DNA from: Verrucomicrobiia bacterium
GTDB lineage: Bacteria > Verrucomicrobiota > Verrucomicrobiia > Limisphaerales > Fontisphaeraceae
Assembly (NCBI GenBank): GCA_026414565.1
Contig: JAOAIT010000055.1
Coordinates: 62,001-126,000 of the forward strand
Reading direction: 5' to 3'
Length of the DNA stretch: 64,000 nt
Part shown: piece after piece, positions 20,067 to 42,340 of the stretch
Layout: each line of letters opens with the position of its first letter
Numbering within the stretch: the stretch's first letter is position 1
Program-made: the position numbers and the translations under genes
Notes under the pieces: generated by a model
Databases searched by the model: none
Told to the model about the DNA's origin: nothing
What the model saw: only the letters and a program-made list of their open reading frames with translations

Positions 20067-20068
20067 AA

Positions 20069-22075: not shown

Positions 22076-22097
22076 TCAGCCGATACATCCTTTGCTT

Positions 22098-23331: not shown

Positions 23332-23357
23332 AAACTGCGCCGTTGGGCGCAGTTTTT
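23332..23357 (+). terminator. Intrinsic terminator closing the hemicellulase cluster
   Basis: AAACTGCGCC, loop GTTG, GGCGCAGTTT: a perfect 10-bp stem with a tetraloop, running into TTTTT then GCTTTATT. It lies 79 bp after the xylanase stop and separates the cluster from the giant-protein gene. Confidence 0.9.
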
Positions 23358-23446: not shown

Positions 23447-26400
23447 ATGAAAGCCCGAACTTTTCTTATGCCCCAGGTGTTGGCAACCCCTGTGGCATGG
23501 TGCCTGTTTTGGCTTTTGCCTCAGGCGACCCCGTTGCAGGGCGCCTCGTACACGTGGTTTGGTGGCAATGGCAACTGGAATGTGGCCACAAACTGGATTC
23601 CGCAAGGAGTCCCAGGGCCGGGGGATTCTGTCACCATATTGTCAGGAAATGTCGCTCTGCCGGGGGGCGGCACGGAATTGCAAATTGCCAATCTCTATCA
23701 CCGCGGCGGCAGGATTTTTGGGTCAAACACGCTGGTGATTGCGTATAATTTTGACTGGACGGCGGGAGTGCTCGGCGGAGGCGGTGGCCGATTGGTGGCC
23801 ATGGGGGGCATGAACCTCGAGAACACCAATACGATCGAACTGGCAGGATGGACATTGGAAAACCGGGCCTATGGCCGTTGGCGCGGCATGGGGCCGTTGT
23901 TCATGCACTCCGGCGCAGTGCTGACCAACGGCGGTTTTTTTACGTTGGAGAGCGCCCAGCCAATCCTCAGCAGCAACCTCAATGTGCGCATCGTCAACGC
24001 GGGGTACTTTTCGTTGGATACCACCAATGGGGTGGTGGTGATGAATCCAACGCCCTTGGGCACGCCCTTGATGCAGTTTGAAAACTTGGGTTCTTTACAG
24101 ATAAGCGCCGGCGGGCTGCGTCTCGAACGGGCCACGATGACGATGGCGAATGACGCGCAACTGCTTTTCCTGGTTAACGGCACCAACGAGATCACCGATT
24201 ATGGCGTCATTGAATGCGCGCAGATGGTGACTCTGAATGGCAACCTCGGGGTCCAGTTGGATCCGACTTACCTCTGGCCACAGAATCATGAGGTGACCTT
24301 GTTGCGCGGCGCCCTTCAGGGGGAATTTCTTACTAGCACTTTTGAGCCTTCGGACCGCCAATATTATCTCTCTTACGATGGCTGGCCCTGGGTGCAGGTG
24401 AAATTGCTGGTGCAGGGACTGCCGCCGCACATCGTTCAGAATGCCGAGTCCTGGGAGGGGCCGCCGGGCAAGGAGTGCATGATTGTCTGCTTTGCTGATG
24501 GCACGCATCCGATGCAGTTCCAATGGTACAAAGAGGGGGTTCCGCTGCCCGCGGCCAACATGGATTATCTTTTGTTTGCGCAGGCAAACAATAGCCACCG
24601 GGGGAACTACTATTGCGTGGTCTCCAACCTCTACGGGGCGGTCACCAGCCAGGTGGCCACCGTTTCGGTGGTGGCCCCTCCGCGGTTGTTGTCCTTCTAC
24701 CTCGCGGGTAATACCATGTATGTGACGGCCGAGAATTCTGCAGACGGCGGTCAATTGCATTTGGAAAAAAGCACCAATCCCGATATCGGTTATTTTTCCA
24801 TGACCAATCAATTTGGCTGGCCGGCGCAGGTTTTGACCCTGTCAGATTTCGTTGTCAGCCCGGAGATGGGGCATTTTTATCGGATAGCGACGCGCGGCCC
24901 GCTGGGGACACCCATTTATGCCACCAATATCTTTGGTTATTGGGCCTATGATTTGCGGCCAGGCTACAATCTGATCGCGCAACCGTTTATTACCTCGGAC
25001 AACTCGTTGAACAGCGCCTTTGTGAGCGTGCCGAATGGTTCGCAAGTCGTTTTGATCAACAGCAACCGCCTGGAAACTTTCTCCTACGATCCCCTTTATG
25101 GGTGGTTGGATGAATCCTACATCCCTACCGGCCGCAAATTAAAACCTTGGGAGGGGTTTTATTTTTGCAATCCCTCCACTGCGACGGTCACAGTACAAAT
25201 GGTGGGCGAACTGCCGGTGGGCAATTTGACCAACGCCGTGCCGGAAGGCAAATGTGTGCTTGCACCGCTGTTTCCGCGGCGTGAGTTTCTGGGGTTTCCA
25301 GCCGTGGAGGGGGATCGGGTGTGGACGTTTGATGAAGCAACCCAGGCGTTTCTGCTTCACACTTTCACCAACAACACCTGGCTGCCGGAATATCCGTTGC
25401 TCTTTCAGCACAAGGCCTTCTGGTATGAGCCGGCCTTTCCTTCCTCCCCAAGTGGAGAAGGCTCGCCCCCTCCCCGGTTGTGGCGGGATTGGCTGATCAA
25501 TTCTGGTTATCCGGAGGATTATGGCTATTATTCCACGCCCACGGTGTACACCGGCCCGCCGCATCCCCTGGTGCCCCAATGGCAGTTGGGGGAGGGACCG
25601 GTGATCACCCAGCAGCCCGCCTCCCAAACGGTGCAGGAAGGCCAGCCGGTTCAATTGGTGGTCGTGGCCACGGGCACTGGGCCCCTGTATTTTAATTGGT
25701 ATTTCCAGGGCGCGATGATCATGAGCGGCACCAATTCGGTGCTGAACATTCCATCGGCCAATCCCGCCATTGCTGGGTCTTATTTTGTGGTGGTCAGCAA
25801 TGCCTACGGGGTGGTCACCAGCCAGGTGGCGATGGTGCAGATAGGCCCGCCCTCGTCCGTAATTTCCCAAGTGATCGTCTGGGGTAATAGCCACTATGGT
25901 CCAACCAATCTGCCACCGGGATTCACGAACCTTGTGGCCGTAGCAGCCGGTGAGGAGCACTGCCTCGGCCTGCGAGCGGATGGCACCGTCGTGGCTTGGG
26001 GGGGCAATACCTCGGGACAAACTAATGTTCCGCCGGGATTGTCGAATGTAGTGGAAATCGCGGCTGGGGGGTTTCACAGCTTGGCGCTGCGTCAAGATGG
26101 TACAGTGGTGGCGTGGGGGGAGTATAATGACGGGCAAACGGCCGTGCCACCGAGCCTAAGCAATGTCGTGGCCATTAGTGCAGGGCAGTTGCACAGCCTG
26201 GCGTTAACAGCGGATGGCCGGGTGGTGGCATGGGGGGACAACTTTGAAGGTCAGGGCAATGTGCCTGCGGGTTTGTATGACATTATCGCCATCTCAGCGG
26301 GGTGGTATTACAACATGGTTTTGCGTGCCGATGGCACCGTGGCGGTCTGGGGAAATAACTGCTGTGGGCAGACCCAGGTGCCACCCGGCTTGAGCAACGT

Positions 26401-29400
26401 GGTGGCCATTTCGGCGGGCGAAGCCCATTGTTTGGCGCTGCGGGCGGATGGCACGGTTGTCGCCTGGGGAGATAATGAGAATGGCGCCACCAACGTGCCG
26501 GCCGGCTTGAGCAACGTGGTGGCCATTTCGGCGGGATCGACTCATAGCCTGGCCTTGCAGGCTGACGGTACCGTGGTGGGTTGGGGTAAATACCGATTTA
26601 GTGAGAGTGCCACGAATATACCTCCGGGGCTAACCAATGTGGTCTCCATCGGGGCGGGCTTTTATTACAGCCTGGCCTTGGTGGGCAACTGCCCGCCACG
26701 GCTGGCCCCGCCAGTCCTTACGCATCGAGTGGTGGAAGGAAGCCCGGCGGTGTTTAATGCCGGGGCGACGGGCTGGCGGCCCTTAAGTTACCAATGGCGA
26801 TTTAATGGTTCGCCCATCGCTGGGGCAAATCAGCCGTGGCTCACCCGCCATCCTGTGACACCACTTGTGACCGGGGATTATGACGTGGTGGTGACTAATC
26901 CCTATGGGGTTGCCACCAGCCGGGTGTCCCACTTGCAAATGGTCCCGCCGCCCCTGCCGCCGCAAGTGGTGGTTTGGGGCAACGAGCCAAGAGGATTATT
27001 CTGGGTGCCCCCGGGATTGCGTGACGTCATCGCAGTGGTGGCAGGGGAAAACTATAACCTGGCTTTGCGCCGGGACGGCACGGTGGTGGCCTGGGGGGAT
27101 CGCTGGGAATCCAGCCTTCCTAATTATGTTCCCATGCTTATGCCGCCTGGTGTAACCAACGTGACAGCCATCGCCGCAGGCAACCACCATGCCCTGGCCC
27201 TGCGGGCGGACGGAAGCGTTATGGTGTGGGGATGGCAGGCCGGCTCCTATGCTCCAGTGGCCCAATCGCTGAGCAATGTAGTCTCCCTGGCCGCAGGATT
27301 TTACCACAATTTAGCCCTGACGACGGATGGCACGGTCCTAGCCTGGGGGGCCAATGCTTATAGCCTGACAAACATTCCCCCGGGGTTGAGCAATTTGTTG
27401 ATGATTGCGGCCGGAGCGTACCACAATCTGGTCTTAAAATCCGACGGCACCGTGACAGCATGGGGACTAAACGATTATGGTCAGACTAATGTTCCCGTCT
27501 GGCTTAGCAACGTGGTGGCCATCGCAGCGGGAAGGGCTCACAACCTGGCGCTCCGTGCGGACGGCACAGTAGTGGGTTGGGGGAACAATGGTTATGGCCA
27601 AACGAATGTACCCGCCGGTTTGAGCAACGTCCTGGCCATCGCTTGTGGTTTTGATCATAGCCTGGCGCTGAAAGCGGATGGAACCGTGGTGGCGTGGGGT
27701 AGAAATAGTGTGGGGCAAACCAACGTCCCCTCGGCTTTGGGCGGCATAACAGCAGTGGCGGGAGGTGGCTACCACAGCGTCTCAATGATCGGCGAAGGAC
27801 CGCCGCATTTCGCGCCGGTGATACCGCTCCGCCGTGCGCAGGTCGGCGGGCGGGTGGTGCTCCAGGTTTCCGTTAGCGGGCAATGGCCGATGACTTATCA
27901 GTGGCTGTTTAATGGCCTGCCCATACCAGGCGCCAACCGCCCGTGGCTGGTCTTGAACAACGTGCGCCCGGAAGACGCAGGGGTCTATCAGGTGATGGTG
28001 CAAAACACCTTAGGCATGGCGACCAGTCCTGCGTTGGTGCTGCAGTTGGACACGCCGCCCCCGCCGCCGCCTCCGCAGGTAGTGGCTTGGGGGGGCAACG
28101 ATTATCGGCAGCTCAACGTCCCGGGGGGATTGAGCAATGTGGTGGGCATCGCTTGCGGGGAGCACCACAGCCTGGCGTTGCGCAGGGATGGCACGGTGGT
28201 CGCCTGGGGGGACAACAGCTATTTCCAGGCGACGGTTCCCATCTGGCTGACTAATGTCATTCAAGTCGCGGCGGGCTATGCGCACAACCTGGCTTTGCTT
28301 TGTGACGGGACGGTATTCGCCTGGGGCGATAATTCCATGGCCCAGCTTCAGGTGCCGCCGGACTTGATGAATGTCGTGGCCATCGCGGCCAGTTCCGCGC
28401 ACAGCCTGGCCTTGTTGGAAGATGGGTCAGTGCTAGCATGGGGGGCAAATGATTCGGGGCAATGTAACGTCCCCTTCACTGCTACCAATGTGGTGGCCAT
28501 TTCCGCCGGGGAAGACTTCAGTTTGGCCCTGCGTGCGGATGGTACCGTGGTAGGTTGGGGGGATAATACCTATGGGCAGGCGGCGCCTCCCACCGGCTTG
28601 AGCCGCGTGGTGGCAGTGGCCGCGGGGGGGAATCATAGTTTGGCCTTGCAGGCGGACGGCAGGGTCGTCGGGTGGGGTGCCAATGACGCCGGCCAGCTCG
28701 ACATTCCTCCAGGTTTGACGAATGTGGTGGCCATCGCGGCAGGGGGGGAACACAGCGTGGCCTTGCGGGCGGATGGCACAGTGATGGCATGGGGTCAAGG
28801 TGCCCACGGTGAACTGCTGGTGCCGCCGGGCTTGACCAATGCAGTGGCGGTCGCCGCGGGTTACACACATACCTTAGCACTGAAGGGGACTGGTGCGCCC
28901 TTCCTGTTGCCGCAGGTATTGGTGCGCAGCGGAAGGGTGGGGGGCAGGGCGGTTTTCAAGGCGCAGGCAACGGGGCAGTGGCCTTTGAATTATTGTTGGT
29001 ATCAATGGTTTGGATTCCTCGTGCCAATCCCCTTTACCAATGCCTGGTTGGAGTTGGAAGATTTGCAGCCGCTGCACTCTGGCTATTATGTCGTTGAGGT
29101 CGGTAACGCCCAGGGTTCTGTTTCGTCCGAGCTCTTGTATTTGTCTGTTCAGGCAAACCAAAATGCGGCCCCGGTCATTCTGCAACATCCGGCCGACCGG
29201 GTGGTGCGGGCGGGTTCCACGGTGACGCTGAGCGTGCAGGCTGAAGCGTCACCACCGCCGGTTTATCAGTGGTTCTTCGAGTCCACGCTGATCCCCAATG
29301 CCACCAATGCCACCCTGTTGCTGGCCGATGTGCGGCCGGCCCAGGAAGGTTACTATTTTGTGCGCGTCAGCAATTCGCAGGGGAGCCAGGACAGTTTTTC

Positions 29401-32400
29401 CGCGTATCTAACCGTCATAGAGCAGGACCCGCAAATTGAGGTAAATGGGGTGTATAAACCCTCCGGGCGCCACGTTTTGCCGGACAATTCGCCGGTGATG
29501 ATCTCGCTGATTACAGCCTATGCCAACGGCAGCATTTATTATTCCACCAATAACCTGCATCCGGATGACGGGCGTTTGTACACCGGACCATTCGAGGTGC
29601 GGCCGCCGCTCACGCTCAAGGCGATTGCCTACAACAGCAACCGCACGGAATGGACGGCGGTGGTGACGAATCGGTTGGAGATTGGCTGGGAGTTTCCGTT
29701 GATCTTGAGCACGCCGGGCGGCGGCTCGGTGACTGCCAGTCCGGGGCCCGGGCCTTATCCTTCCAACACGGTGGTGACCCTGACCGCCTCGCCGGCGCCG
29801 GGGTGGACTTTCCTGCGCTGGGAGGGCGATGCCACCGGCACCAATCCGGTGACGCAGGTGGTGATGAATCGGCCCCGGCAGGCGCAGGCGATTTTTGGGA
29901 CCACCATACCCCTGACCCTTCAGGGCAGCGGGGCGGTGCAGTTCGAGCCGGCGGCCCGGATTTTTCCTTTTGGCAGCCGGGTGCGCCTGTCGGCCCTGCC
30001 CAACGCAGGGAATTATTTCCAACAGTGGATCGTGGCCGGCCATGCGATGCCCGTCAGCCCGTTGGATTTGGTGCTGACCAATCCGGGGCCTCCGGTGGTG
30101 GCTGTGTTTGCGGCGCTGCCCTTCAACAGCTTCGCCCTGAACACCATGATTGTGGGCGGGGGCAGGGTGACGCGCAGTCCCAACCAGAACTATTACCCCA
30201 ACGGCACGTCAGTTTTATTAACCGCCGTGCCAGACCCCGGCTTTATCTTTGCCGGCTGGAGCGGGGATTTGTTGGGCACCAATGCCGTGGCGGGCCTGGT
30301 GATGAATGCCAACCGTACGATCACGGCGCATTTCATCGAGGCCAACCGGCTGGCGATTATTGCCCAGCCCCGCAGCCAGGTGGTGCAGGTGGGTGAACCG
30401 GTGACGTTGTCGGTCAGGGCCGTGGGTTCCAACTTGTTCTATCAATGGTTTTTTAATCGCCAGCCCTTGGAATCGGGGCAGAGTGATTACACCTTCGTGG
30501 CCTCAGAAGAGCGCGCCGGGGCCTATTACGTCATGGTGGGCAACGACCAGGGCGACTGGCTGGAAAGCGAGGTGGCCTGGGTGACGGTCAACCGCGAGCT
30601 GAATCCTCAGCCGCTGGCCACATTGTTTGTGGGCACGGCGGCCGATGAGGCCGCCATGGCGGTGGCGGTGCAATCCAACGTCGTTTATCTTGGCGGCGTG
30701 GTCAGCTCGGGGGCGGGCGAGGCCTTTGGCGCCAGGGTGCCGGCTAATTTTACCACCAATACCTCGCCGTTGTGGCAGACGATCTGGCCGGGGCGTCCGG
30801 GAGCGGATGGCTTCATGGGGATCCTGCTGGCGCGCGAGGGGCCGGTCTTTGCGGGTTACAGCGAGCCGTTGTTGTCCGTGGCGCGGGCGGCCAAGGGGGC
30901 GCTGGTGCAATTAAATGCCACCAATGGACAGGTGCTCTTCTCGCGCCGCACCCCGGCGAGCGGAGCCTTTGACTTTGACGGCGCAGAGTCCCTGCTGGCC
31001 ATCGCGCGCAGTCAGGAGCCAGGGGGTGAGTTTTGGTATGTCACGGGTCAGTCGCAGAGCGGCGCGGAGAGTTACGGACAGATGTTCGTGGCCAAGGTAA
31101 CCCCCGGCGGGAGCCAGCTTTGGGTGAGCAGTGAGCTGCGCAGCAACACGGCCACGGAGACCCTGGCCGCGTCCACCCTGCCGGGCTTTGCCCTGGAATT
31201 GCCAGCAGAATACAGCGTGGGGCGGGCGGTGGTGGTCATGGGCGGTGCCGTGTATGTGGTGGGACGCTGCGACATCGAGGGCATGTCTTATGCCGCTTTG
31301 TGGAAATTCACCCTGGACGGCCGGCTGTTGTGGCGGCGGCTGGGGACGCCGGGCGAGTATTATGGGCTGGCGTCCATGAATGGCTATTTGTTTGCGGTGG
31401 GTGCCGCCAACAATTTCTGGAGCGGCCAGGATTTTCTGGTGGACAAATGGGAGCCGGAAGGGTGGCTGGCTTTTTCGTCCGTTTTTGACCGGGCGGAGCA
31501 GGATGATGTGCTGACGGCGGTGGTGGCGGGCAGCGGGCGTCTATACGCCTGCGGTTACACGTATGGCGGCACAGCGGGCGGGGCGGATGCCGTGGTGCTC
31601 CGCATAGACCCTGCCGAAGGGGCCTTGCTGTCCACGTTATTGCAAGGGTACTACCAGGATGACTTTGCCCACGCGATCGCGATGGAGGGGCGATATTTGT
31701 ACGTGGCCGGGGAGACCAGCAGCGGCGGAGCAGGGGGTACGGATGCTGTGCTGGTGCGTTTATTCGTGCCTGATTTGGTGCCCAATGCAGAGCCGGTGGT
31801 GGCCTTCACCAGTCCGGCCGATGGCACGGAATTCGTGGCGCCGGCCACCGTGAGCCTGGAGGTCAGCGCCACGGATGCCGACGATGGAATTGAGCGCGTG
31901 GAGCTTTATCAGGATGGCATGGAGTTGGCCACCTTCTCTGCGCCGCCCTACCGGCTGGTGGTGAGCAATTTGTGGGCGGGCGAGTATGTCTTCAGCGCCG
32001 TGGCTTATGACACCCGGGGGGCGAGGGTGTATGCGGCGCCGGTGCGCATTGCAGTCAACAATTATGCCGCATCCTACAAGCTGGATTTTGAGGGGGTCTC
32101 CTTGACTCCGGGCGGCGTGAGTTTGCCCTTCACCTTGAGCAACTATCTGGCCGGGTTTGGCGCGCGGGTCATCAATCTCACGCCGGGCAGCACCGTGCAA
32201 GTGGTGCGGGCCACGCAGGTGTATCCGGGGCTAATCAGGGCCTCCAGCGGTTCCAACCTTCTGGAGCACGTTTCCACCGCTCGCGGGGCGGTGACCAACC
32301 GCTTTGAGTTCAACCAGGTGCTGGACAGTGTGCGGTTCACGCGGGTGGCGGTGTTGGCCGGCGCTGCGGGGGCCGTGCATCCGCAATGGCGGGCGCGGGC

Positions 32401-35400
32401 GTTCAACCGCTATGGCATGGAGCTCAGCGCGGTGGGGGAGAACGCCCTGTTCTCGCCCCAGGACATCCCGGCGCGGACGTTCACGCTGACAGGGCCGGAC
32501 ATCTCGATGGTGGTGTTTGAATCGGTTTCGCAGGGGCTGGGCCGGTTTAACTCGCTGCTGCTGGATGATCTGGTGTTGAATGTGGCGTTGTCGTCCAACA
32601 GCGCGCCGCTGGTGGTGATCACCCAGCCGGCGCAGAAGGCCCAATTTGACGGGCCGGCCAATGTGACCGTCCGGGTGCTGGCAGAAGATTACGATGGGCA
32701 GGTCAGCCTGGTGGGGTTGATGGTCAATGAAAGTTCGGCGCTTTGGACCAACAACCTTCAGGCCGGCCGATTTGAGCCGTCCTTTGTGCTGTCCAACTTG
32801 GTGGTGGGCACCTATCGCCTGGTGGCGGTGGCCTACGACAACGAAGGCGCGGCGCGTGAGTCGGCTCCAGTGAGTTTCTCGGTGGTGGCACCGGCGCCCC
32901 CCAACGATCACTTCGCCCAGCGCCTTGTTTTGACCGGCCTCACGGCCACCAATGCCGGTAATAGTGCCGGGGCCACGTTTGAACCGGCCGAGCCTTATCA
33001 TGCAGGCGTGCCGGGCGGGCGCTCAGTGTGGTTTGCGTGGACGGCCCCGCAGGACGGCCTGGCGACGGTGACAACGGCGGGCAGCACCTTCGACACGGTG
33101 GTGGCGGTGTACACCGGGACGAGGTTGATGGAGTTGGAGGAGGTGGCTTCCAATGACGATGATCCTTCTCAGACGAATGCCCTGACCAGCCGCGTCTGGT
33201 TCCAGGCCCGGCGGGGGCAGACCTATCAGATCGCCGTGGACGGCTACAACGGCGCGGGCGGTTATTACACCTTGCTGGTCAGCATGAACATGCCGCCCAC
33301 CGTCACCTGGGTGGCGCCGGAGGCCGGGGCGGTGGTGGCGGCGCCGGGACCGCTGGTGTTGCGGGCACAGGCGCAGGACAGCGACGGGGTGGCGCGCATC
33401 GAGTTCTATCGGGGAAATACACTGGTAGGCACGGCCACCAATCAACCGCCGGCTACCTCCTTCACGGCTCAGGTGACGCTGACCAATGTCATGCCAGGCG
33501 ATTATTTCTTCCGCGCGCGGGCGGTGGACACCGCCGGCGTGGCGGCAGAAACGCAGCCTGTGCGGGTGACTGTGCGCCCGCCGGCGGCCAGCAACGATAT
33601 GTTTGCCAGCGCGCGAGTGTTGAGCGGGCCGGCGGTCTCGGTGACCGATGACAACCGCAGCGCCACGCTGGAGCCGGGCGAGCCTGATCCTTGGGGCGGG
33701 CTGGCGGGCAATTCGCTGTGGTATCGGTGGACGGCCCCTGCCAGCGGGACGGTCTTGATCAACACCTTGGGCAGCAGTTTCGATACCCTGCTCGAGGTGT
33801 ACACGGGCAGCACGTTGCAAAACTTGCAACTGGTGGCGCTGGATGATGATGGGGGCGCCGAAGTCATGGCGGTGGTGGCCGGAGCGGGGGGCGGCGCCAG
33901 CCTCCTCAACGTGGAGGCAACGGCGGGCACCACCTATTACATTGCGGTCAAAGGCTTTCTGGGCGCGGGTGGCGATGTGCGGTTGACCCTGGTGTTCAAT
34001 GCGCCGCCGGTGGTGCAACTGGGCATTAACACCAATTTGGCGCGGTTCACAGCGCCCGGCATCATTCCCTTGGTGGCGGCCGTGTCGGATGACGGCGTGG
34101 TGAAGCAGGTGGACTTTTTCCTGAACGAAGAGCTGATCGGGTCCAGTGTCAATCCGGCGTCCACCAACCGCTTCACCGCCACGTTGACTCTGACCAATGT
34201 GCCGGCCGGCGATCAATATGTGTTTGCCGTCCGGGCAGTGGATGATCTGGGGGCGGTGACATGGACGACGCCACTGACCGTGCCCATCTTGGGTTTCGCG
34301 GAAGGGCCGCAGATTCTGGCCACGCTGCCCACCCTCGAGGTGGTGCGCGGGGAGAAAATTGAGTTGAGCGTCAGCGCACGCGGCACGCCGCCCCTGCAAT
34401 ATCAGTGGTTCTTCAATGGTTTCCCGCTCTGGGGCGCCAACAGCGCCACGCTCGTCATTCCCAACGCCTCGCCGGCCAACAGCGGTTTGTATTTCGCGCG
34501 GGTGAGCAACGCCCAGGGCGCCCAGGACAGCGGGCAGACGGTGGTGCGGGTGTTTGTGCCGCCGGTGATTACCATGCCGCCAGCCTCCGTGGTGCTGCCG
34601 CCGGGCACTTCCGCGGTATTTACCGTAACGGCGGTGGGCACGCCGCCGCTAAGTTTCCAATGGTATCGCTACGAGACGCCGCTGCCGGGTGCCACCGGCC
34701 CAACCCTGGTGATTACCAACGTCTCCCCTTGGGAAATGGGGGTGTACAACGTGGTGGTGACCAACCGCGCCGGGCGCGCACAGGCCTCAGCTTCATTAAC
34801 CGTGTCAGCCGTGTTGGCCCCGCCATCCAGTGTGCCGCGGGATGATTTCTGGGTGCCGGATGGCCCGGTGCACGCCCTGGCTGAGAGCAGCGGCACCTTA
34901 TTCCTGGGCGGCAACTTCCGCATGGTGGGGCCCAACACCGGCCTCGGCGTGGCCTTGGATGCGGCGTCTGCGGCGCCCGACACCGTGCTGCCACGGGTGG
35001 AGGGGACAGCCATTTACGCGGTGGTGCCCGATGGCCGGGGTGGATGGTACATCGGAGGTGATTTTGTGCGGGTGGGTGGTCAGCCCCGCACCAATCTGGC
35101 CCATATCCTGGCCGATAGAACGGTGAACCCCGCCTGGATTGTGGCGGCCAACGGCCCGGTGCGCGCCTTGTTGTTGGACGACCAAATTCTTTATGTGGGC
35201 GGCGAGTTCAGCCAGGTGGGCGGGTTGGCGCGGAGTAATCTGGCCGCCATTCGAACCCAGGACGGCGCATTGCGGCCTTTTGCGCCCAATCCAGACGGCC
35301 CGGTGCGCGCGCTGGCCAAGGTGGAGAGCAAGTTGTATGTGGGCGGCGATTATTTGAACATCGGCGGCCTCCCGCGGGCGCGGCTGGCCAAGGTGGATCC

Positions 35401-38400
35401 GAGCGATGGCCAGGTGCGCACGGACCTGGTCATCGGTGTGGACCGTGCCATTCATGCGTTGTTGGTGGATGGTCAGCGGCTGTTTGTGGCGGGAGAATTT
35501 GACACGCTGACGAATAACAACGTGAGCTTCAGCCGCGCCAAGGTGGCGTTGATAGACACCGAAGCGCGGGAGGTGCTGGGCTGGCAGGCGCCGCTGCCGG
35601 CCGGCCCCAATGTGCGGGTGTACGCCCTGGCCCAGGTGGGCGACACGCTCTATGCGGGCGGTGATTTTGTGTTCACCAGCGGCGGGGTGACCTACCGGCA
35701 TCTGGCGGCCTTCAACCGCCTGGATGGAGCGGTCCGGGCGTGGAACCCCGGCGCGGGCGGTGTGGTGCGCTCGCTGGCGGCCGGGCCGGACGCCATTTAC
35801 GCGGGGGGATTGTTCCTGACGATGGGCGGCCAGTCCCGCCTGCGACTGGCAGCGGTGCATCCCGCCACCGGCGCACTGTTGAACTGGCAGGCTCCCGCCA
35901 ACGGGGCGGTGCGAGCCCTGGCCTTGCAGGAAAACACCCTCTTTGCGGGCGGGCAGTTCACCCTCGCGGGCGGGGTGTTGCGCAGCAATGTGGCCGCCTT
36001 GCGCCTGGCCACGGGTCAAACCACCGGTTGGAATCCCGGCGCCAATGGCCCGGTGCGGGCGCTCTGGGTGAGCGGGACCAATGTCTTTTTGGGCGGTGAG
36101 TTCACCGAGGCCGGCGGACAGGCGCGCAGCCGGATCGCCGCCATTTCGGCGCTCAGCGGCACGGCCACCGCGTGGAATCCGGGTGCCAGTGGCACGGTGC
36201 GCGCCTTGGCCATGGCGGGCAAACGGCTGTATGTGGGCGGCGACTTCGCCACCCTGGCCGGAGGGGCGCGCACGTATGCCGGCGCCGTGGATGCCGATAC
36301 GGGCGGGTTGCTGGATTGGAATCCGGCCCCGGATGGGCCTGTGCATGCCCTGCGGGTGACGGCCAACGGCGCTCAGGTGTATTTGGGCGGGGAGTTTAAT
36401 TCCCTTAATGGTACGGTTAGGCCCTTCCTGGCACGCGTGGACGCCAGCGGTGCCCTGGAGGGGTGGGCTCCCGCGCCCAATGCGCCGGTGTTGGCCCTGG
36501 CCTTGCGTGAGAACCCGCTGCCGGTGGTCTATGTGGGGGGTGCCTTCTCGCAAATGGGCGGCGTGGCCCGCCAGCGGCTGGCGGCGGTGGATGCTGGCGG
36601 GGTGGTGTTGCCGGAGTTTAACGTGCCGGTACAAAGCCTCACCGGCGATGTGGCGGTGGTGCGCGCGCTGGGCTTGCGGCAGAACACCTTGGATGTGGGC
36701 GGTTGGTTCCAGCGCCTGTCAGCCACGAATCGGGGCCATCTGGGCAGTGTGGATGCCGTCACCGGCGTGGTGGCCGAATGGCATCCAGATTTGACCGTGC
36801 CGCCGCAGGCGCTGGGGGTGCAGGCGCTGGCCGCAGCAACCAACGTGGTGATTGCGGGCGGTGATTTCACACGGGTGGGCGGCGATTGGCGGCCTTATCT
36901 GGCGGTCTTTGCGCCGCGGGGCGCCCCCATCATTGTGGGCCAGCCGCAGGGCCGGGTGGTGGCCGCGGGCGGTTCGCATACGCTGGCGGTGACCGCCCGG
37001 GGCGCATGGCCGCTTTATTTCCAGTGGCGTTTGAACGGCGTCAATCTCCCGGGCGCCACCAACGCCACGCTGACGCTCACCAACATCCAACTGGCCCAAT
37101 GCGGCGCTTACAGCGTGGTGGCCAGCACGCCTTACGGCGTGGCCGAGAGCCAGCCGGCCAACGTGCTCCTGGCCGCCCCGCAGGTGGCGATGGGGGATCG
37201 TTTCACCAACTCCTTCAATCTGCCGGCCGTGGCCACGGGCGTGATGATGAGCAAGAATACCGAGGCCACCGGCTTGCAGGATGATCAGTTGCCCGGCGGC
37301 TTCAAGCGCGGCGGGCGTTCAGTGTGGGCCACGTGGGTGGCGCCCACCAATGGCGTGGTGACGTTCAGCACGCTGGGCAGCACCTTTGACTCCCTCTTGA
37401 CAGTGCTGCAGGGGGACACGCTCAGCACGTTGGTGGTGGTGGAGCGTGACGAAGATTCGGCCGGCAACCTGAATGAACGAGTAACCTTCCCCGTCACCCA
37501 GGGCAATGCGTATCACCTGCTGGTGGACGGGGTCGAGGGGGCCAGTGGCATCATCCTGTTGAGCTGGAATCTGCTCGTGGGGGTGACGGACTATCCCATC
37601 ATCACCGATCAGCCGCGCTCGCGCACCGTGCCGGAAAACTCCCCCGTCAATCTGCAGGTTACCGCCCAGAACGCGGTGAGTTATCAGTGGTTCTTCCGGG
37701 GTCAGGCCATCGCGGGGGCCACGGCGGCCACCTACACAATTCCGTCCATGATGCGCGCCCTGGCCGGGCCATACCAGGTGATTGCCTATGGCGCCAGTCC
37801 CGACCGCCGGGCGCAGTCCCGGGTGTTTGTGCTGGAGGTGGGGCAGTTGGTGCAGAGCAATCAAACCGTCGTGCTGGAAGATGTGCGGACGCACGACAAG
37901 TTTGACGACATGCTGCGCGGCACGGGGCCTGGCGGGCAGACCTTGGGCGGTCCCCAGCGGCAGTTCTTTGCCTCGGTTTCCGCGGGCAGCTCGGGCACGC
38001 AGGTGCTGGACAACTACGGCGCCACCACCGAGCCGAATGAGCCCCAACACGGCGGCGTGCAGGGCGGCGCGTCGCGGTGGTTCCGCATTGACACCCTGAC
38101 TAATGGGGTGCTGGTGCTGGACACCATCGGAAGCGAGATTGACACCGTGCTGGCAGTCTATCAGGGCCAATCCTTGCTGACCCTGCAACTGGTGGGCAGC
38201 GATGACAACGGCGCGCCGGACGGCGTGCGCAGCCTGCTGCGCCTCAGCGTGCAGGCCAATCAGTCCTACCTCGTGGCGGTGGATGGCGTGAATGGGGCCG
38301 AAGGTCACATCGTGTTGAATTATCTTCTGGCCACTCCGCCGGCGGTGGTGACGCCGCCGGTGAACCAGAGCGTGGCCAGTGGCGGCAGCGCCAGCTTCAG

Positions 38401-38830
38401 TGTCACGGCCTCCGGCACGGCGCCGCTGCGCTATCAGTGGTATCATCTGCGGACTTCGCAGACGAATTGGCTGCCGGTCACCGGTGGCACCAATGCCACC
38501 TTGTCGCTGACCAACGTGCAGGCCGGCGATGCAGGCTCGTTGCGGGTGGTGGTGGCCAACCCCGCCGCCAGCGTGACCAGCGCGGTGGCCACGTTGACGG
38601 TGGAGGCGCCGCTGCGCTTCGCCACCGGGGGTGCGAGCAGCTATTCCAACGGGGTGTTTCGGTTGAACATCAGCGGCAAGGCCGGCCAGATGTTCATCAT
38701 TCAGGCTTCAACGAATCTGAGCACCTGGATCCCCATCAGCACCAACCTGGCCACCGGCGGCCAGGTGCAGTTTGCCGATCCCGGCGCCGCGCTGGGCCGG
38801 CGGTTTTATCGGGCGGTAGGGCTTGAATAA
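23447..38830 (+). CDS. Giant exported protein of Ig-like domains, RCC1 propellers and delta-60 propellers
   Basis: 5127 residues, Sec leader (VAWCLFWLLPQATPLQGA). Approximate residue map: 30-320 beta-rich start (WFGGNGNWNVATNW); Ig-like 325-410; unknown 410-710; Ig-like 715-800; RCC1 propeller 808-1081; Ig; RCC1 1173-1450; Ig; RCC1 1544-1815; two Ig; chitobiase C-terminal-like 1995-2080; two InlB B-repeat-like 2080-2300; Ig; WD/SBBP-like propeller 2385-2775; Big-type and two pre-peptidase C-terminal-like domains alternating 2780-3620; two Ig; fourteen delta-60 units 3800-4490; then Ig, PPC-like, Ig, PPC-like, Ig; and a C-terminal STNLSTW...FYRAVG domain. No catalytic motif, LPXTG, T9SS tail or autotransporter barrel is seen. 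It is probably a surface or matrix adhesin; no Shine-Dalgarno is obvious. The barrel protein follows 27 bp on. Confidence 0.93.
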   Translation: MKARTFLMPQVLATPVAWCLFWLLPQATPLQGASYTWFGGNGNWNVATNWIPQGVPGPGDSVTILSGNVALPGGGTELQIANLYHRGGRIFGSNTLVIAYNFDWTAGVLGGGGGRLVAMGGMNLENTNTIELAGWTLENRAYGRWRGMGPLFMHSGAVLTNGGFFTLESAQPILSSNLNVRIVNAGYFSLDTTNGVVVMNPTPLGTPLMQFENLGSLQISAGGLRLERATMTMANDAQLLFLVNGTNEITDYGVIECAQMVTLNGNLGVQLDPTYLWPQNHEVTLLRGALQGEFLTSTFEPSDRQYYLSYDGWPWVQVKLLVQGLPPHIVQNAESWEGPPGKECMIVCFADGTHPMQFQWYKEGVPLPAANMDYLLFAQANNSHRGNYYCVVSNLYGAVTSQVATVSVVAPPRLLSFYLAGNTMYVTAENSADGGQLHLEKSTNPDIGYFSMTNQFGWPAQVLTLSDFVVSPEMGHFYRIATRGPLGTPIYATNIFGYWAYDLRPGYNLIAQPFITSDNSLNSAFVSVPNGSQVVLINSNRLETFSYDPLYGWLDESYIPTGRKLKPWEGFYFCNPSTATVTVQMVGELPVGNLTNAVPEGKCVLAPLFPRREFLGFPAVEGDRVWTFDEATQAFLLHTFTNNTWLPEYPLLFQHKAFWYEPAFPSSPSGEGSPPPRLWRDWLINSGYPEDYGYYSTPTVYTGPPHPLVPQWQLGEGPVITQQPASQTVQEGQPVQLVVVATGTGPLYFNWYFQGAMIMSGTNSVLNIPSANPAIAGSYFVVVSNAYGVVTSQVAMVQIGPPSSVISQVIVWGNSHYGPTNLPPGFTNLVAVAAGEEHCLGLRADGTVVAWGGNTSGQTNVPPGLSNVVEIAAGGFHSLALRQDGTVVAWGEYNDGQTAVPPSLSNVVAISAGQLHSLALTADGRVVAWGDNFEGQGNVPAGLYDIIAISAGWYYNMVLRADGTVAVWGNNCCGQTQVPPGLSNVVAISAGEAHCLALRADGTVVAWGDNENGATNVPAGLSNVVAISAGSTHSLALQADGTVVGWGKYRFSESATNIPPGLTNVVSIGAGFYYSLALVGNCPPRLAPPVLTHRVVEGSPAVFNAGATGWRPLSYQWRFNGSPIAGANQPWLTRHPVTPLVTGDYDVVVTNPYGVATSRVSHLQMVPPPLPPQVVVWGNEPRGLFWVPPGLRDVIAVVAGENYNLALRRDGTVVAWGDRWESSLPNYVPMLMPPGVTNVTAIAAGNHHALALRADGSVMVWGWQAGSYAPVAQSLSNVVSLAAGFYHNLALTTDGTVLAWGANAYSLTNIPPGLSNLLMIAAGAYHNLVLKSDGTVTAWGLNDYGQTNVPVWLSNVVAIAAGRAHNLALRADGTVVGWGNNGYGQTNVPAGLSNVLAIACGFDHSLALKADGTVVAWGRNSVGQTNVPSALGGITAVAGGGYHSVSMIGEGPPHFAPVIPLRRAQVGGRVVLQVSVSGQWPMTYQWLFNGLPIPGANRPWLVLNNVRPEDAGVYQVMVQNTLGMATSPALVLQLDTPPPPPPPQVVAWGGNDYRQLNVPGGLSNVVGIACGEHHSLALRRDGTVVAWGDNSYFQATVPIWLTNVIQVAAGYAHNLALLCDGTVFAWGDNSMAQLQVPPDLMNVVAIAASSAHSLALLEDGSVLAWGANDSGQCNVPFTATNVVAISAGEDFSLALRADGTVVGWGDNTYGQAAPPTGLSRVVAVAAGGNHSLALQADGRVVGWGANDAGQLDIPPGLTNVVAIAAGGEHSVALRADGTVMAWGQGAHGELLVPPGLTNAVAVAAGYTHTLALKGTGAPFLLPQVLVRSGRVGGRAVFKAQATGQWPLNYCWYQWFGFLVPIPFTNAWLELEDLQPLHSGYYVVEVGNAQGSVSSELLYLSVQANQNAAPVILQHPADRVVRAGSTVTLSVQAEASPPPVYQWFFESTLIPNATNATLLLADVRPAQEGYYFVRVSNSQGSQDSFSAYLTVIEQDPQIEVNGVYKPSGRHVLPDNSPVMISLITAYANGSIYYSTNNLHPDDGRLYTGPFEVRPPLTLKAIAYNSNRTEWTAVVTNRLEIGWEFPLILSTPGGGSVTASPGPGPYPSNTVVTLTASPAPGWTFLRWEGDATGTNPVTQVVMNRPRQAQAIFGTTIPLTLQGSGAVQFEPAARIFPFGSRVRLSALPNAGNYFQQWIVAGHAMPVSPLDLVLTNPGPPVVAVFAALPFNSFALNTMIVGGGRVTRSPNQNYYPNGTSVLLTAVPDPGFIFAGWSGDLLGTNAVAGLVMNANRTITAHFIEANRLAIIAQPRSQVVQVGEPVTLSVRAVGSNLFYQWFFNRQPLESGQSDYTFVASEERAGAYYVMVGNDQGDWLESEVAWVTVNRELNPQPLATLFVGTAADEAAMAVAVQSNVVYLGGVVSSGAGEAFGARVPANFTTNTSPLWQTIWPGRPGADGFMGILLAREGPVFAGYSEPLLSVARAAKGALVQLNATNGQVLFSRRTPASGAFDFDGAESLLAIARSQEPGGEFWYVTGQSQSGAESYGQMFVAKVTPGGSQLWVSSELRSNTATETLAASTLPGFALELPAEYSVGRAVVVMGGAVYVVGRCDIEGMSYAALWKFTLDGRLLWRRLGTPGEYYGLASMNGYLFAVGAANNFWSGQDFLVDKWEPEGWLAFSSVFDRAEQDDVLTAVVAGSGRLYACGYTYGGTAGGADAVVLRIDPAEGALLSTLLQGYYQDDFAHAIAMEGRYLYVAGETSSGGAGGTDAVLVRLFVPDLVPNAEPVVAFTSPADGTEFVAPATVSLEVSATDADDGIERVELYQDGMELATFSAPPYRLVVSNLWAGEYVFSAVAYDTRGARVYAAPVRIAVNNYAASYKLDFEGVSLTPGGVSLPFTLSNYLAGFGARVINLTPGSTVQVVRATQVYPGLIRASSGSNLLEHVSTARGAVTNRFEFNQVLDSVRFTRVAVLAGAAGAVHPQWRARAFNRYGMELSAVGENALFSPQDIPARTFTLTGPDISMVVFESVSQGLGRFNSLLLDDLVLNVALSSNSAPLVVITQPAQKAQFDGPANVTVRVLAEDYDGQVSLVGLMVNESSALWTNNLQAGRFEPSFVLSNLVVGTYRLVAVAYDNEGAARESAPVSFSVVAPAPPNDHFAQRLVLTGLTATNAGNSAGATFEPAEPYHAGVPGGRSVWFAWTAPQDGLATVTTAGSTFDTVVAVYTGTRLMELEEVASNDDDPSQTNALTSRVWFQARRGQTYQIAVDGYNGAGGYYTLLVSMNMPPTVTWVAPEAGAVVAAPGPLVLRAQAQDSDGVARIEFYRGNTLVGTATNQPPATSFTAQVTLTNVMPGDYFFRARAVDTAGVAAETQPVRVTVRPPAASNDMFASARVLSGPAVSVTDDNRSATLEPGEPDPWGGLAGNSLWYRWTAPASGTVLINTLGSSFDTLLEVYTGSTLQNLQLVALDDDGGAEVMAVVAGAGGGASLLNVEATAGTTYYIAVKGFLGAGGDVRLTLVFNAPPVVQLGINTNLARFTAPGIIPLVAAVSDDGVVKQVDFFLNEELIGSSVNPASTNRFTATLTLTNVPAGDQYVFAVRAVDDLGAVTWTTPLTVPILGFAEGPQILATLPTLEVVRGEKIELSVSARGTPPLQYQWFFNGFPLWGANSATLVIPNASPANSGLYFARVSNAQGAQDSGQTVVRVFVPPVITMPPASVVLPPGTSAVFTVTAVGTPPLSFQWYRYETPLPGATGPTLVITNVSPWEMGVYNVVVTNRAGRAQASASLTVSAVLAPPSSVPRDDFWVPDGPVHALAESSGTLFLGGNFRMVGPNTGLGVALDAASAAPDTVLPRVEGTAIYAVVPDGRGGWYIGGDFVRVGGQPRTNLAHILADRTVNPAWIVAANGPVRALLLDDQILYVGGEFSQVGGLARSNLAAIRTQDGALRPFAPNPDGPVRALAKVESKLYVGGDYLNIGGLPRARLAKVDPSDGQVRTDLVIGVDRAIHALLVDGQRLFVAGEFDTLTNNNVSFSRAKVALIDTEAREVLGWQAPLPAGPNVRVYALAQVGDTLYAGGDFVFTSGGVTYRHLAAFNRLDGAVRAWNPGAGGVVRSLAAGPDAIYAGGLFLTMGGQSRLRLAAVHPATGALLNWQAPANGAVRALALQENTLFAGGQFTLAGGVLRSNVAALRLATGQTTGWNPGANGPVRALWVSGTNVFLGGEFTEAGGQARSRIAAISALSGTATAWNPGASGTVRALAMAGKRLYVGGDFATLAGGARTYAGAVDADTGGLLDWNPAPDGPVHALRVTANGAQVYLGGEFNSLNGTVRPFLARVDASGALEGWAPAPNAPVLALALRENPLPVVYVGGAFSQMGGVARQRLAAVDAGGVVLPEFNVPVQSLTGDVAVVRALGLRQNTLDVGGWFQRLSATNRGHLGSVDAVTGVVAEWHPDLTVPPQALGVQALAAATNVVIAGGDFTRVGGDWRPYLAVFAPRGAPIIVGQPQGRVVAAGGSHTLAVTARGAWPLYFQWRLNGVNLPGATNATLTLTNIQLAQCGAYSVVASTPYGVAESQPANVLLAAPQVAMGDRFTNSFNLPAVATGVMMSKNTEATGLQDDQLPGGFKRGGRSVWATWVAPTNGVVTFSTLGSTFDSLLTVLQGDTLSTLVVVERDEDSAGNLNERVTFPVTQGNAYHLLVDGVEGASGIILLSWNLLVGVTDYPIITDQPRSRTVPENSPVNLQVTAQNAVSYQWFFRGQAIAGATAATYTIPSMMRALAGPYQVIAYGASPDRRAQSRVFVLEVGQLVQSNQTVVLEDVRTHDKFDDMLRGTGPGGQTLGGPQRQFFASVSAGSSGTQVLDNYGATTEPNEPQHGGVQGGASRWFRIDTLTNGVLVLDTIGSEIDTVLAVYQGQSLLTLQLVGSDDNGAPDGVRSLLRLSVQANQSYLVAVDGVNGAEGHIVLNYLLATPPAVVTPPVNQSVASGGSASFSVTASGTAPLRYQWYHLRTSQTNWLPVTGGTNATLSLTNVQAGDAGSLRVVVANPAASVTSAVATLTVEAPLRFATGGASSYSNGVFRLNISGKAGQMFIIQASTNLSTWIPISTNLATGGQVQFADPGAALGRRFYRAVGLE

Positions 38831-38857
38831 ACCGGAAATCTTTCAGCCATTGTGATT

Positions 38858-41800
38858 ATGCGCATTCTGTCATTGTGGTGGAGAAATCTCGGTTGGGCGG
38901 CCGTGGTGGGGCTGGCCGCCGGTGTGTGCGCCCAGGAGGCCACCAACACCTCCGTCATCCTCACCATCGAGGGCCGCGTGGAAGTGGCCCGCGCCGGCCA
39001 GGACGTGTGGACACCCGCCCAGCCCAATCAGGTGTTGAATCCGGGCGATCGGGTGCGGACGGGCCGCGACAGCCGGGCCAGTCTGCGCTTGTACAACCAG
39101 AGCGTGCTGCGGTTGAGCGAGGTCACCACCATGGTCATTCAGGCCCCGCCCAACAAGAAAAGCCCGCTGCTCGATTTGAAAAACGGGTCTGTCTTCATGT
39201 TTGATCGCGGCAAGCCGTCGGATCTGGAATTTCGCGCCAAAAAAGCCTCGGGCGCGGTGCGCGGCACCGAGTTTTTCCTGTCCACCGCCGAGGAGGGCGA
39301 AACCGTGCTGGTGGCGGTGTTTGATGGAGCGGTGCAGGTGAGCAATGAAGTGGGCCAGGTGGCGCTGAATTCAGGCGAGCAAACGCTGATCGAAGAGGGC
39401 AAACGGCCGGAAAAGACCGCGGTGATCAACGCGATCAATCTCATTCAATGGGGCCTGTATTATCCCGGCGTTTTGGATCCGCGTGAGCTGCAACTCGATC
39501 AGGTGCCGGAGCTGGCTCCTTCCCTGGCCGATTATCGGGCGGGGGATTTGTTGGGCGCCCTGGCCAAGTACCCGGCGAACCGTGAGCCGGCCAGCGATGC
39601 CGAGCGAGTCTATCGGGCGGGGCTGGCCCTGGCGGTGGGGCGGGTGGAGGCGGCGGAGGCCCTGCTGCAGCAGGTGCCGGCGGGCAGCGCCGCAGCGGCA
39701 GGAGCGGGGGCGCTGCGCACGGTGATTCAGGCGGTCAAATTCGAGCAGCGGACTGCTCCGCCGCCGGCTCCGGCCACGGCTTCGGAATGGATGGCGGAGT
39801 CGTATTATTACCAATCGCGCTCGCAACTGCCCTCGGCGATGAATGCCGCCCGCCAGGCGGCGCGGCTGTCCCCGGACTTCGGTTTTGCGCTGGCCCGGAT
39901 GGCGGAGCTGGAGTTCAGTTTTGGGCGAATTGGCGCCATGGAAGCGCAACTGGACCGGGCCTTGACTCTGTCACCGCGCCACGCCCAGGCTCATGTGCTG
40001 CGCGGGTTTGCGCATGCGGCCCGGGGGCGCATCACCGAAGCCCTCAGTTGCTTCGAGCAGGCCATTGCGCTGGACGGCGCCCTGGGCAATGCCTGGCTGG
40101 GCCGCGGCCTCTGCCGCATCCGGCAGGGGCAGGCGCAGGCGGGGCTGGAGGACTTGCAAACCGCCGCGGCACTGGAGCCGCAGCGCTCGCTGCTGCGCAG
40201 TTATCTGGGCAAGGCCTACAGCCACGGACGCGATGCACGGCAGGCGGCGCATGAGCTGTCCCTGGCCCGCAAACTGGATGCGGGGGATCCCACGCCCGTC
40301 TTTTATCGCGCCCTCCTTCATCGGCAGGAGAATCGGCTCAATGCGGCGGTGCGTGATTTGGAGGAATCCATCCGGCTGAATGACAATCGCAGCGTGTATC
40401 GCTCGCGGTTGTTGCTGGATCAGGATCGCGCCGTGCGCAGCGCCAATCTGGCGGGCATCTATCAGGACGCCGGCCTGACCGAGGTGGCGGTGCGTGAGGC
40501 CTTCAAGGCGGTGTACAGCGATTACGGCAATTATTCAGCGCACTTGTTTTTGGCCAACAGTTACGATGCCCTGCGCGATCTGCGCGGCACGGTGTTGCGC
40601 TACGAGACACCGTGGCTCAGCGAGTATCTGCTGGCCAATCTCCTCGCGCCGGCCAATGCGGGCGTGCTCTCGCCACAGATCAGTCAGAACGAATATTCAC
40701 GGCTGTTTGACCGTGACCGGGTGGGCCTGGTCAGCCTGACAGAATACGCCAGCAACGGCGACTGGCTCCAGAAAGTGGCCCAGTATGGTGTGCTGGGCGG
40801 CACGGCATGGTGCCTGGAAACTTTGTATCTAGCGGAGAACGGCTACGGCGCGCCCAACCGGCAGATGGAGCATCTGACGGTCTCGCTCAAAGTCAAGCAA
40901 CAGGTGACGCAACAGGATGGCCTGTATTTTCAGGCGGTGTACTTTGACGGGGCCATGGGGGATGTCTCGCAGCGTTATGATCCACTGACCACGGTGCGGA
41001 CCTTCCGGCTGAAGGACAATCAGGAGCCGTTGTTGATGGCGGGTTATCACCGGGAATGGAGTCCGGGCCATCACACGCTGTTGTTGGTGACACGGCTGCA
41101 TAATCATCTGCGCGTGAGCAACCCGGCGCAACGAACCATGATTCTCGACTATTCGTTTGCGCCGCTGGCGGGGGTCATTCGGGTGGGGTTGGTGCAGGAA
41201 CTGGATGAGCGCTCGGAAATCTACACGGCCGAGCTGCAACAAATCATTCAGCGTGAGCGCCACAACACAGTCCTCGGCGGCCGCCTCCAGGCGGGGGAAT
41301 ACGATGTGACCAGCCGCCAGCGGAATCCCACAGTGTTTCCCGCCTTCTTCTCGCCGGGGTTTGCGGCCAATCAATCGGTCTCGGTGGAACTGAGCCGCTT
41401 CGGGGCGTATGCTTATCATTCGTGGGAGATTGCGCGGCCGCTGACCCTGATGGCGGGCGTGGCGTATGATCATTTTCAATATCCGGTGAATCTGCGGCTT
41501 TCGCCGGTCTCCGCCCGGACCGAGTCGGTGGACCGGATCTCCCCCAAGGCGGGCTTTATCCTGACACCTTATCAAGGGGCCACGGTGCGCGGCGGTTATG
41601 CGCGTTACCTGGGCGAGGTGGGCTTTGAGCAGAGTTTTGTGCTTGAGCCCACCCAGGTGGCCGGCTTCAACCAGGCGCTGCGCAATCTGGTGCCGGATGC
41701 CCTGTTTGGCCCCACGCCGGCCTCCCGCGGCGAAATCTTCGGCCTGGCTTTCGAACAAAAACTGCCCACACAAACTTATTTGGGCGCGAGCGGAGAGCTT

Positions 41801-42340
41801 CTGTTTTCGGATGTCAATCGGGAGCTGGGGGTGTTTGCTTTACGGGAATTGCCGCCCTTCCGGCCGGAGACGACCCGCGAGCAGTACGACTTTCGGGAGC
41901 GCACTTTGCGCTTGTATGTCAATCAACTGCTGGGTGAGGAGTGGAGTCTGGGGGCCAATTACCGCCTGAGCCACGCCCAGGTGCAGCAGCGCATCCCGGT
42001 GATTCCGGAGACGCTGAGTCCGCTGGCGGCGGCGCAGACGCGGGGCCTGCTGCATCAACTCCACCTGTACGTGGCCTTCAATCATCGCTGCGGCTTCTTC
42101 AGCCGGCTGGAGGGCATCTGGTCCCAGCAGCACAATCAGGGCTTCAACCCGGACCGCCCCGGGGATGACTTCTGGCATTTCAACGCCTTTGCCGGTTACC
42201 GCTTCAAACGCGGCCGGGCGGAGATCAAACTGGGTGTGCTGAATCTGGCGGATCAGGATTACCGCCTCAATCCGGTGAACACTTTCCTCGAATTGCCGCG
42301 CGAGCGCACGTTCTTTGCCTCGCTGTTCTGGCGGTTCTAA
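38858..42340 (+). CDS. FecR domain - TPR - outer-membrane beta-barrel fusion protein
   Basis: 1160 residues from ATG 38858 (GTG 38852 possible). Leader NLGWAAVVGLAAGVCAQE; FecR domain about 31-181 (LNPGDRVRTGRDSRASLRL, ASGAVRGTEFFL, GAVQVSNEVGQVAL, GEQTLIEEG); TPR-type helices about 210-590 (for example AHVLRGFAHAARGRITEALS); then from about 660 alternating amphipathic strands to the end (GAYAYHSWEIARPLTLMAGV, GATVRGGYARYLGEVG, FFASLFWRF) with a terminal Phe as in outer-membrane barrels. No TonB plug domain is seen. FecR domains normally face a sigma-factor partner; none is present here. Its position 27 bp after the giant gene suggests a dedicated partner for export, anchoring or sensing. Confidence 0.85.
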   Translation: MRILSLWWRNLGWAAVVGLAAGVCAQEATNTSVILTIEGRVEVARAGQDVWTPAQPNQVLNPGDRVRTGRDSRASLRLYNQSVLRLSEVTTMVIQAPPNKKSPLLDLKNGSVFMFDRGKPSDLEFRAKKASGAVRGTEFFLSTAEEGETVLVAVFDGAVQVSNEVGQVALNSGEQTLIEEGKRPEKTAVINAINLIQWGLYYPGVLDPRELQLDQVPELAPSLADYRAGDLLGALAKYPANREPASDAERVYRAGLALAVGRVEAAEALLQQVPAGSAAAAGAGALRTVIQAVKFEQRTAPPPAPATASEWMAESYYYQSRSQLPSAMNAARQAARLSPDFGFALARMAELEFSFGRIGAMEAQLDRALTLSPRHAQAHVLRGFAHAARGRITEALSCFEQAIALDGALGNAWLGRGLCRIRQGQAQAGLEDLQTAAALEPQRSLLRSYLGKAYSHGRDARQAAHELSLARKLDAGDPTPVFYRALLHRQENRLNAAVRDLEESIRLNDNRSVYRSRLLLDQDRAVRSANLAGIYQDAGLTEVAVREAFKAVYSDYGNYSAHLFLANSYDALRDLRGTVLRYETPWLSEYLLANLLAPANAGVLSPQISQNEYSRLFDRDRVGLVSLTEYASNGDWLQKVAQYGVLGGTAWCLETLYLAENGYGAPNRQMEHLTVSLKVKQQVTQQDGLYFQAVYFDGAMGDVSQRYDPLTTVRTFRLKDNQEPLLMAGYHREWSPGHHTLLLVTRLHNHLRVSNPAQRTMILDYSFAPLAGVIRVGLVQELDERSEIYTAELQQIIQRERHNTVLGGRLQAGEYDVTSRQRNPTVFPAFFSPGFAANQSVSVELSRFGAYAYHSWEIARPLTLMAGVAYDHFQYPVNLRLSPVSARTESVDRISPKAGFILTPYQGATVRGGYARYLGEVGFEQSFVLEPTQVAGFNQALRNLVPDALFGPTPASRGEIFGLAFEQKLPTQTYLGASGELLFSDVNRELGVFALRELPPFRPETTREQYDFRERTLRLYVNQLLGEEWSLGANYRLSHAQVQQRIPVIPETLSPLAAAQTRGLLHQLHLYVAFNHRCGFFSRLEGIWSQQHNQGFNPDRPGDDFWHFNAFAGYRFKRGRAEIKLGVLNLADQDYRLNPVNTFLELPRERTFFASLFWRF

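Follow-up and report, generated by a model that had tools for sequence, protein, structure and literature searches.

In Sinorhizobium meliloti, the outer-membrane protein NsrA has been reported as a receptor required for CHASE2-cyclase signalling (PMC7529298, PMC13001267). The nsrA gene lies directly upstream of cyaK, and NsrA was the sole receptor of FecR-TPR-barrel architecture with a published function that was found in this analysis. Gene clusters for FecR, TPR and CHASE2 adenylate-cyclase proteins have been described in Campylobacterota (PMC9239204), and a biofilm operon with FecR and a CHASE2 histidine kinase in Burkholderia (PMC5192318). Here, a stretch of 64,000 nucleotides from a Verrucomicrobiia bacterium (contig JAOAIT010000055.1, positions 62,001 to 126,000; hereafter the window) was analysed. 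It contains a gene pair on the + strand that encodes a giant exported protein, P0001, and a protein with a FecR domain, a TPR region and an outer-membrane barrel, P0002. We consider it reasonably probable that P0002 is a trans-envelope sensor of the NsrA type and P0001 a surface partner genetically linked to it, which was extended to a giant in this genus.

The FecR-TPR-barrel protein and its relation to NsrA

The gene encoding P0002 starts most likely at an ATG (gene position 38858–42340, + strand; 1160 aa), 27 bp after the stop codon of the giant gene (gap 38831–38857, + strand); the alternative GTG start (38852–42340, + strand) shortens the gap to 21 bp and gives a protein of 1162 aa. In the sister genome, the orthologue, 90% identical to P0002, likewise starts at the equivalent in-frame ATG, with a gap of 26 bp. 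Modeling using AlphaFold (44 sequences) led to a model with a mean pLDDT of 87.9 and a pTM of 0.84, consisting of a hydrophobic, signal-like N-terminal helix, a FecR beta region, a TPR superhelix and 22 strands. On the basis of Pfam and the model, the FecR-containing beta region spans residues 34–190 in the model (residues 36–190 correspond to 38957–39421, + strand), with the FecR domain itself at residues 66–162 (Pfam, E 7e-12). It is followed by a helical TPR region (residues 195–600; 39434–40651, + strand), in which Pfam places TPRs at about 250–600 and the model shows a superhelix; conservation within the family is highest here, with a mean identity of 57% over residues 250–600. The remaining part (residues 623–1161; 40718–42334, + strand) was modeled as a 22-strand outer-membrane barrel that resembles TonB-dependent receptors and ends with a C-terminal F. 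The 50 best PDB matches obtained using Foldseek were TonB-dependent receptors, with no secretion barrel among the best ones. Pfam likewise matched a TonB-receptor-type barrel and gave no match to a plug or POTRA domain in P0002. Pfam, the model and the ATG at 38858 confirm the initial annotation in that a protein with FecR, TPR and outer-membrane barrel parts directly follows the giant.

The same order of parts is found in NsrA: in P0002, a signal-like N-terminus precedes the FecR domain, the TPR region lies between FecR and the barrel, and a barrel of about 550–600 residues forms the C-terminus. Alignment of the P0002 family profile with S. meliloti NsrA using hhalign (99.6%, E 7e-25) extended over 982 columns across FecR, TPR and barrel, and the BLASTP match to NsrA had an E-value of 7e-14. 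The sequence likeness was clear in the FecR and TPR parts and weak in the barrel; because it is so slight there, homology of the barrel halves rests on the global profile alignment and the shared architecture. Note that NsrA was reached via the CHASE2 cyclase CyaK and not via a search with P0002: S. meliloti CyaK was among the best matches of a Verrucomicrobial barrel-adjacent CHASE2 cyclase in the plasmid collection (33% over 586 aligned positions). A tblastn search with P0002 in this collection gave one TPR match only, to a Phyllobacterium plasmid protein of another architecture encoded beside type VI secretion genes. By its predicted architecture, P0002 is an NsrA-type protein, and NsrA is its closest characterised relative in this respect. 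The domain set of P0002 is thus not new, since hhalign and the Pfam layout of FecR followed by TPRs place the same set in this receptor.

P0002 was also compared with FecR anti-sigma regulators. No anti-sigma domain was matched in its sequence, its N-terminus is signal-like, and the genes adjacent to it are those of the giant and of a PSCyt1/PSD1 protein, with no FecI-type sigma gene beside it.

To describe the distribution of the family, genomes of the order were searched, the best two barrel and the best five module candidates being scored in each genome. Full-length or nearly full-length homologues of P0002 were present in 130/293 genomes, and in the sample searched across the phylum, a single clear homologue of full length came from outside the order.

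The giant protein and its terminal module

The giant gene (23447–38830, + strand) encodes a protein of 5127 aa whose N-terminus is a hydrophobic, signal-like stretch. Pfam analysis of P0001 revealed 18 RCC1 repeats, 11 Ig_3 stretches, Big_7, PPC, InlB-type repeats and a DUF5122 propeller, the RCC1-type propellers being arranged in three blocks. The description of an exported giant with propellers and Ig-like domains is thus upheld by the open reading frame (ORF), the Pfam matches and the signal-like N-terminus. The sister genome keeps the pair of giant and barrel genes, and its giant comprises at least 4446 aa. Since the two giants are 63–87% identical over residues 751–5127, P0001 is a real coding sequence. 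Identity between them rises from 63–76% across most of the first half to 86–87% in the last 600 residues.

This conserved end contains what we refer to as the partner module (residues 4579–5127, the last 549 aa; 37181–38827, + strand). It consists of a PPC-Ig-PPC-Ig arrangement (residues 4579–5050) followed by a short C-terminal domain, and it is 86–87% identical in the sister genome, compared with 63–76% in the greater part of the giant's first half. A Foldseek search with the module returned mostly generic Ig chains. Barrel-adjacent proteins of about 570–950 aa in other genomes are homologous to it, and the stand-alone form of about 570 aa is composed of a signal-like N-terminus and the module only (loci L168, L174, L180 and L186). 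The giant is therefore best read as an old partner of 570 aa, in front of which about 4500 residues of propellers and Ig domains appear to have been added in this genus. No other full-length copy of the module is present in its genome.

The module is linked to the barrel gene. In the surveyed loci, 33 double-PPC ORFs were found, namely 21 at position −1 relative to the barrel, five at −2, three at +1, two at +2 and two farther away; the resulting 31/33 within two genes describes position inside barrel neighbourhoods and not genome-wide, as the loci were chosen around barrels. Co-occurrence was estimated by genome. At E 1e-25, the module was found in 102/130 genomes with the barrel and in 16/163 without it (odds ratio 33, p 4e-35, uncorrected for phylogeny). 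When the 28 barrel-only genomes were searched again, near-full modules were detected in only about three. Among the 150 module matches listed, 38 were no more than 10 kb away from a listed barrel; most of the rest came from contigs without a barrel. Loci with an adjacent partner (30/77 scorable loci) were scattered over a tree built from 115 barrel proteins, with 15 changes. Double-PPC open frames of 8489, 5547 and 5700 aa were also observed (G003:C3:20215-21570; G258:C70; G080:C59) in genomes without a full FecR-TPR-barrel homologue.

The C-terminal domain of the giant (residues 5071–5123; 38657–38815, + strand) has the motif STNL..W....RFYR. Domains of this type, 53–57 aa long, gave 46 matches in the window's genome, mostly at C-termini of many otherwise unrelated ORFs, and in 18 of the 20 copies checked the domain ends 3–7 aa before the stop codon. 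No Pfam or NCBIfam model corresponds to it, and there was no convincing match to any library model. It is a candidate for a domain that serves C-terminal sorting or secretion in these bacteria. The initial statement that the giant has no recognisable anchor or self-export module needs amending accordingly, as this domain had been overlooked. The type IX secretion system sorting domain gave a sole match in P0001, which was sub-threshold and internal (residues 762–794). The 53-aa domain was present in the −1 gene of the barrel at 30/100 loci, compared with 26/697 genes at other positions (Fisher p 7e-15). Because this genome, with its single barrel, contains 46 matches, a barrel-specific role of the domain was rejected; linkage to the barrel is specific to the double-PPC module, and the C-terminal domain alone is unspecific.

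In this 4.3-Mb genome, at least 12 other ORFs of more than 2000 aa, the longest with 4953 aa, gave matches to Ig or to the terminal domain; they are located on contigs C13, C18, C23, C37, C52, C53, C61 and others.

Gene neighbourhoods of the barrel

The neighbourhood survey covered 116 loci, including those at contig ends, because a first sample of long contigs was biased against repeat-rich upstream genes. Many of the genomes are fragmented metagenome assemblies whose contigs often stop just upstream of the barrel gene, so that long repetitive genes next to it may be missed; upstream genes are not seen at loci where no more than a few hundred bases remain before the contig end. Genes were taken as ORFs from a simple script, so that some small neighbours are perhaps spurious.

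A CHASE2 gene was located at +1 or +2 of the barrel in 65/102 loci (those with at least 1.2 kb downstream). Pfam analysis of 42 downstream proteins identified CHASE2 in 36; the 42 included 24 cyclases, five histidine kinases and three Ser/Thr kinases. Like partner adjacency, CHASE2 adjacency was scattered on the barrel tree (67/97 loci, 20 changes). The most constant neighbour of the barrel is hence a CHASE2 signalling gene, pointing to sensing rather than export. In addition, sigma-70 region 2 was found in 10 of the 50 other scanned −1 genes upstream of barrels (L057, L090, L095, L096, L098, L099 and others; loci judged from C-terminal sequence), which suggests a second, sigma-factor-type output.

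Proteins of at least 2000 aa were encoded by the −1 gene in 5/100 loci, so the giant of the window is a special case among barrel loci. The link between giant and barrel that had been proposed from their adjacency holds as a genetic link of the module (31/33 positions, odds ratio 33) and does not extend to gigantism. Barrel homologues without a giant neighbour, named beforehand as an observation that would speak against a giant-barrel system, were regularly found.

The window's genome has two FecR matches, P0002 and one on contig C9, and two CHASE2 cyclases, on contigs C29 and C62, neither with a FecR gene beside it. Scored against a profile of barrel-adjacent CHASE2 domains, the C29 cyclase reached 312 bits, the other CHASE2 protein of the genome 68 and CyaK 154; 30 barrel-adjacent CHASE2 genes kept out of the profile had a median of 286 (range 50–406). 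The genome thus contains a CHASE2 cyclase of the appropriate subfamily. Orthologues of both cyclases are present in the sister genome, and a third genome of the family, which has no barrel, contains the second CHASE2 type only. This pattern of three genomes fits a split receptor-cyclase pair, with the C29 cyclase as the likely unlinked partner of P0002. The C62 gene was dropped as a partner, being far below the barrel-adjacent type and also present in the barrel-less relative.

Proposed function and comparison with known systems

In the proposed mechanism, the 22-strand barrel would sit in the outer membrane, with the TPR superhelix and the FecR domain in the periplasm, and P0002 would pass surface information to an inner-membrane CHASE2 receptor. 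The latter would make a cyclic nucleotide; in other species it is a kinase, of the histidine or the Ser/Thr type. The linked surface partner, with the PPC-Ig-PPC-Ig module as its core, would come from the upstream gene and would most likely be displayed on the cell surface, possibly in physical contact with the barrel as its ligand, co-receptor or monitored cargo. In this way, the cell would perceive in what state its own surface layer or adhesin is, or whether it is engaged, and the CHASE2 cyclase encoded on contig C29 would act in trans. A narrower version is put forward tentatively, namely a self-monitoring surface system in which the cell's own linked PPC-Ig protein serves as extracellular ligand or cargo of the barrel. 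The assembly of the giant, its loss or its engagement would then be converted into cyclic-nucleotide or kinase signalling, and the module would tolerate N-terminal extensions of thousands of residues.

Several results weigh against the sensor with a linked surface partner. The module adjoins the barrel in only 30/77 scorable loci and is missing from the nsrA locus of S. meliloti, so that the receptor can do without it, and no full barrel was found when the 16 module-only genomes were searched again. At the window, the +1 gene encodes a PSCyt1/PSD1 protein and not a CHASE2 cyclase; the assignment of a partner in trans is based on a profile score and on three genomes, and adjacent CHASE2 genes vary widely in score (50–406). 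Furthermore, sequence similarity to NsrA almost vanishes in its barrel half (local hidden Markov model E about 1e-3).

The main rival explanation is an export or display port, in which the barrel moves or anchors the partner at the outer membrane, with the TPR region as docking site and the module as export signal, in functional analogy to two-partner secretion. The tight co-directional arrangement with a gap of 21–27 bp is consistent with it, as are a barrel without a recognised plug domain and the linkage of the barrel to the C-terminal module rather than to the rest of the giant; this module is also the giant's best conserved part, as expected for a recognition region. However, the barrel fold is of the TonB-dependent-receptor type, with no secretion barrel among the best PDB matches, 16 genomes contain the module and no full barrel, and the terminal domain is matched 46 times in a genome with one barrel. 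Most barrels adjoin CHASE2 genes, also where modules are lacking, and the characterised protein of the same architecture, NsrA, is a receptor (PMC7529298). We therefore regard a port as unlikely. The two genes could also be independent neighbours, P0002 being an NsrA-type sensor of an outside molecule and the giant one of many adhesin-like proteins that lies upstream by chance. The large ORFs with Ig or terminal-domain matches located away from the single barrel of the genome agree with this, as does the rarity of giant neighbours (5/100 barrel loci). The linkage statistics speak against chance adjacency. Across many families, barrels are linked to the double-PPC module, which the giant contains; moreover, its copy is the only full-length one in the genome, and the sister genome has retained the pair. 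Independence of the two genes is accordingly judged quite improbable.

A role of the barrel as a nutrient receptor was considered in view of the genes upstream of the giant. Three arabinoxylan-degradation genes (16323–23252) encode an esterase-Malectin-arabinofuranosidase fusion (1247 aa), an arabinofuranosidase (670 aa) and a GH10 xylanase (386 aa), and the barrel resembles TonB-dependent transporters, so that giant and barrel might belong to this cluster and the barrel might take up or sense xylan or arabinan fragments. An intrinsic-terminator-like hairpin with a 10-bp stem and a T-rich tail (23332–23355, + strand) nevertheless separates the xylanase gene from the giant, no plug domain was found using Pfam, and the recurrent neighbours at homologous loci are signalling genes. 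This role is very improbable.

Little is known of the signals that CHASE2 domains perceive, and the module family would be a concrete candidate for a ligand or cargo. The survey indicates that NsrA-type receptors of full length are frequent in one order, that a cyclase, a histidine kinase or a Ser/Thr kinase is coupled to them, and that a defined family of surface proteins often accompanies them. The conserved end of the giant, a portable module tied to a sensor, suggests a possible role for such a surface protein in these little-studied bacteria.

Among known systems, the TpsA/TpsB pair is similar in that a large exported protein and an outer-membrane barrel are encoded by adjoining genes, and a resemblance to two-partner secretion had been noted at the outset. 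The resemblance does not hold, and two-partner secretion was rejected: Pfam gave no match to POTRA in P0002 or to an N-terminal TPS (haemagglutination activity) domain in P0001, and instead of a 16-strand barrel of the ShlB/FhaC type the model has 22 strands and a TonB-receptor-like fold. The TPR-porins of exopolysaccharide export (BcsC, PgaA) likewise combine a periplasmic TPR region with a following outer-membrane barrel. The barrel of P0002 is of the 22-strand TonB-receptor type and not 16-stranded, and its FecR domain is an addition; the profile match to this group was weak and confined to the TPRs, and with the wrong barrel class the assignment was rejected. TonB-dependent transporters (OprC, FptA, FecA) share the 22-strand fold and are the best PDB matches, but P0002 has no recognised plug domain and carries FecR and TPR parts in its place. 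The Campylobacterota and Burkholderia systems are alike in that a FecR-domain envelope protein is linked to a CHASE2 sensor gene and one pathway or operon is proposed. In the parts of these descriptions available, FecR and TPR occur as separate proteins, or FecR is combined with LysM, and no linked Ig/PPC surface partner appears (PMC9239204, PMC5192318). Compared with NsrA-CyaK, the CHASE2 gene at the window is unlinked and a giant surface protein is encoded upstream instead, the barrel sequences of P0002 and NsrA are almost unrecognisable as related, and the reported signal of NsrA is a plant protein. Both proteins nevertheless have the same domain order and size, with FecR at about 66–160, TPRs and a barrel from about 600 to 1160–1190, and members of the P0002 family in other genomes are encoded directly upstream of CyaK-like CHASE2 cyclases.

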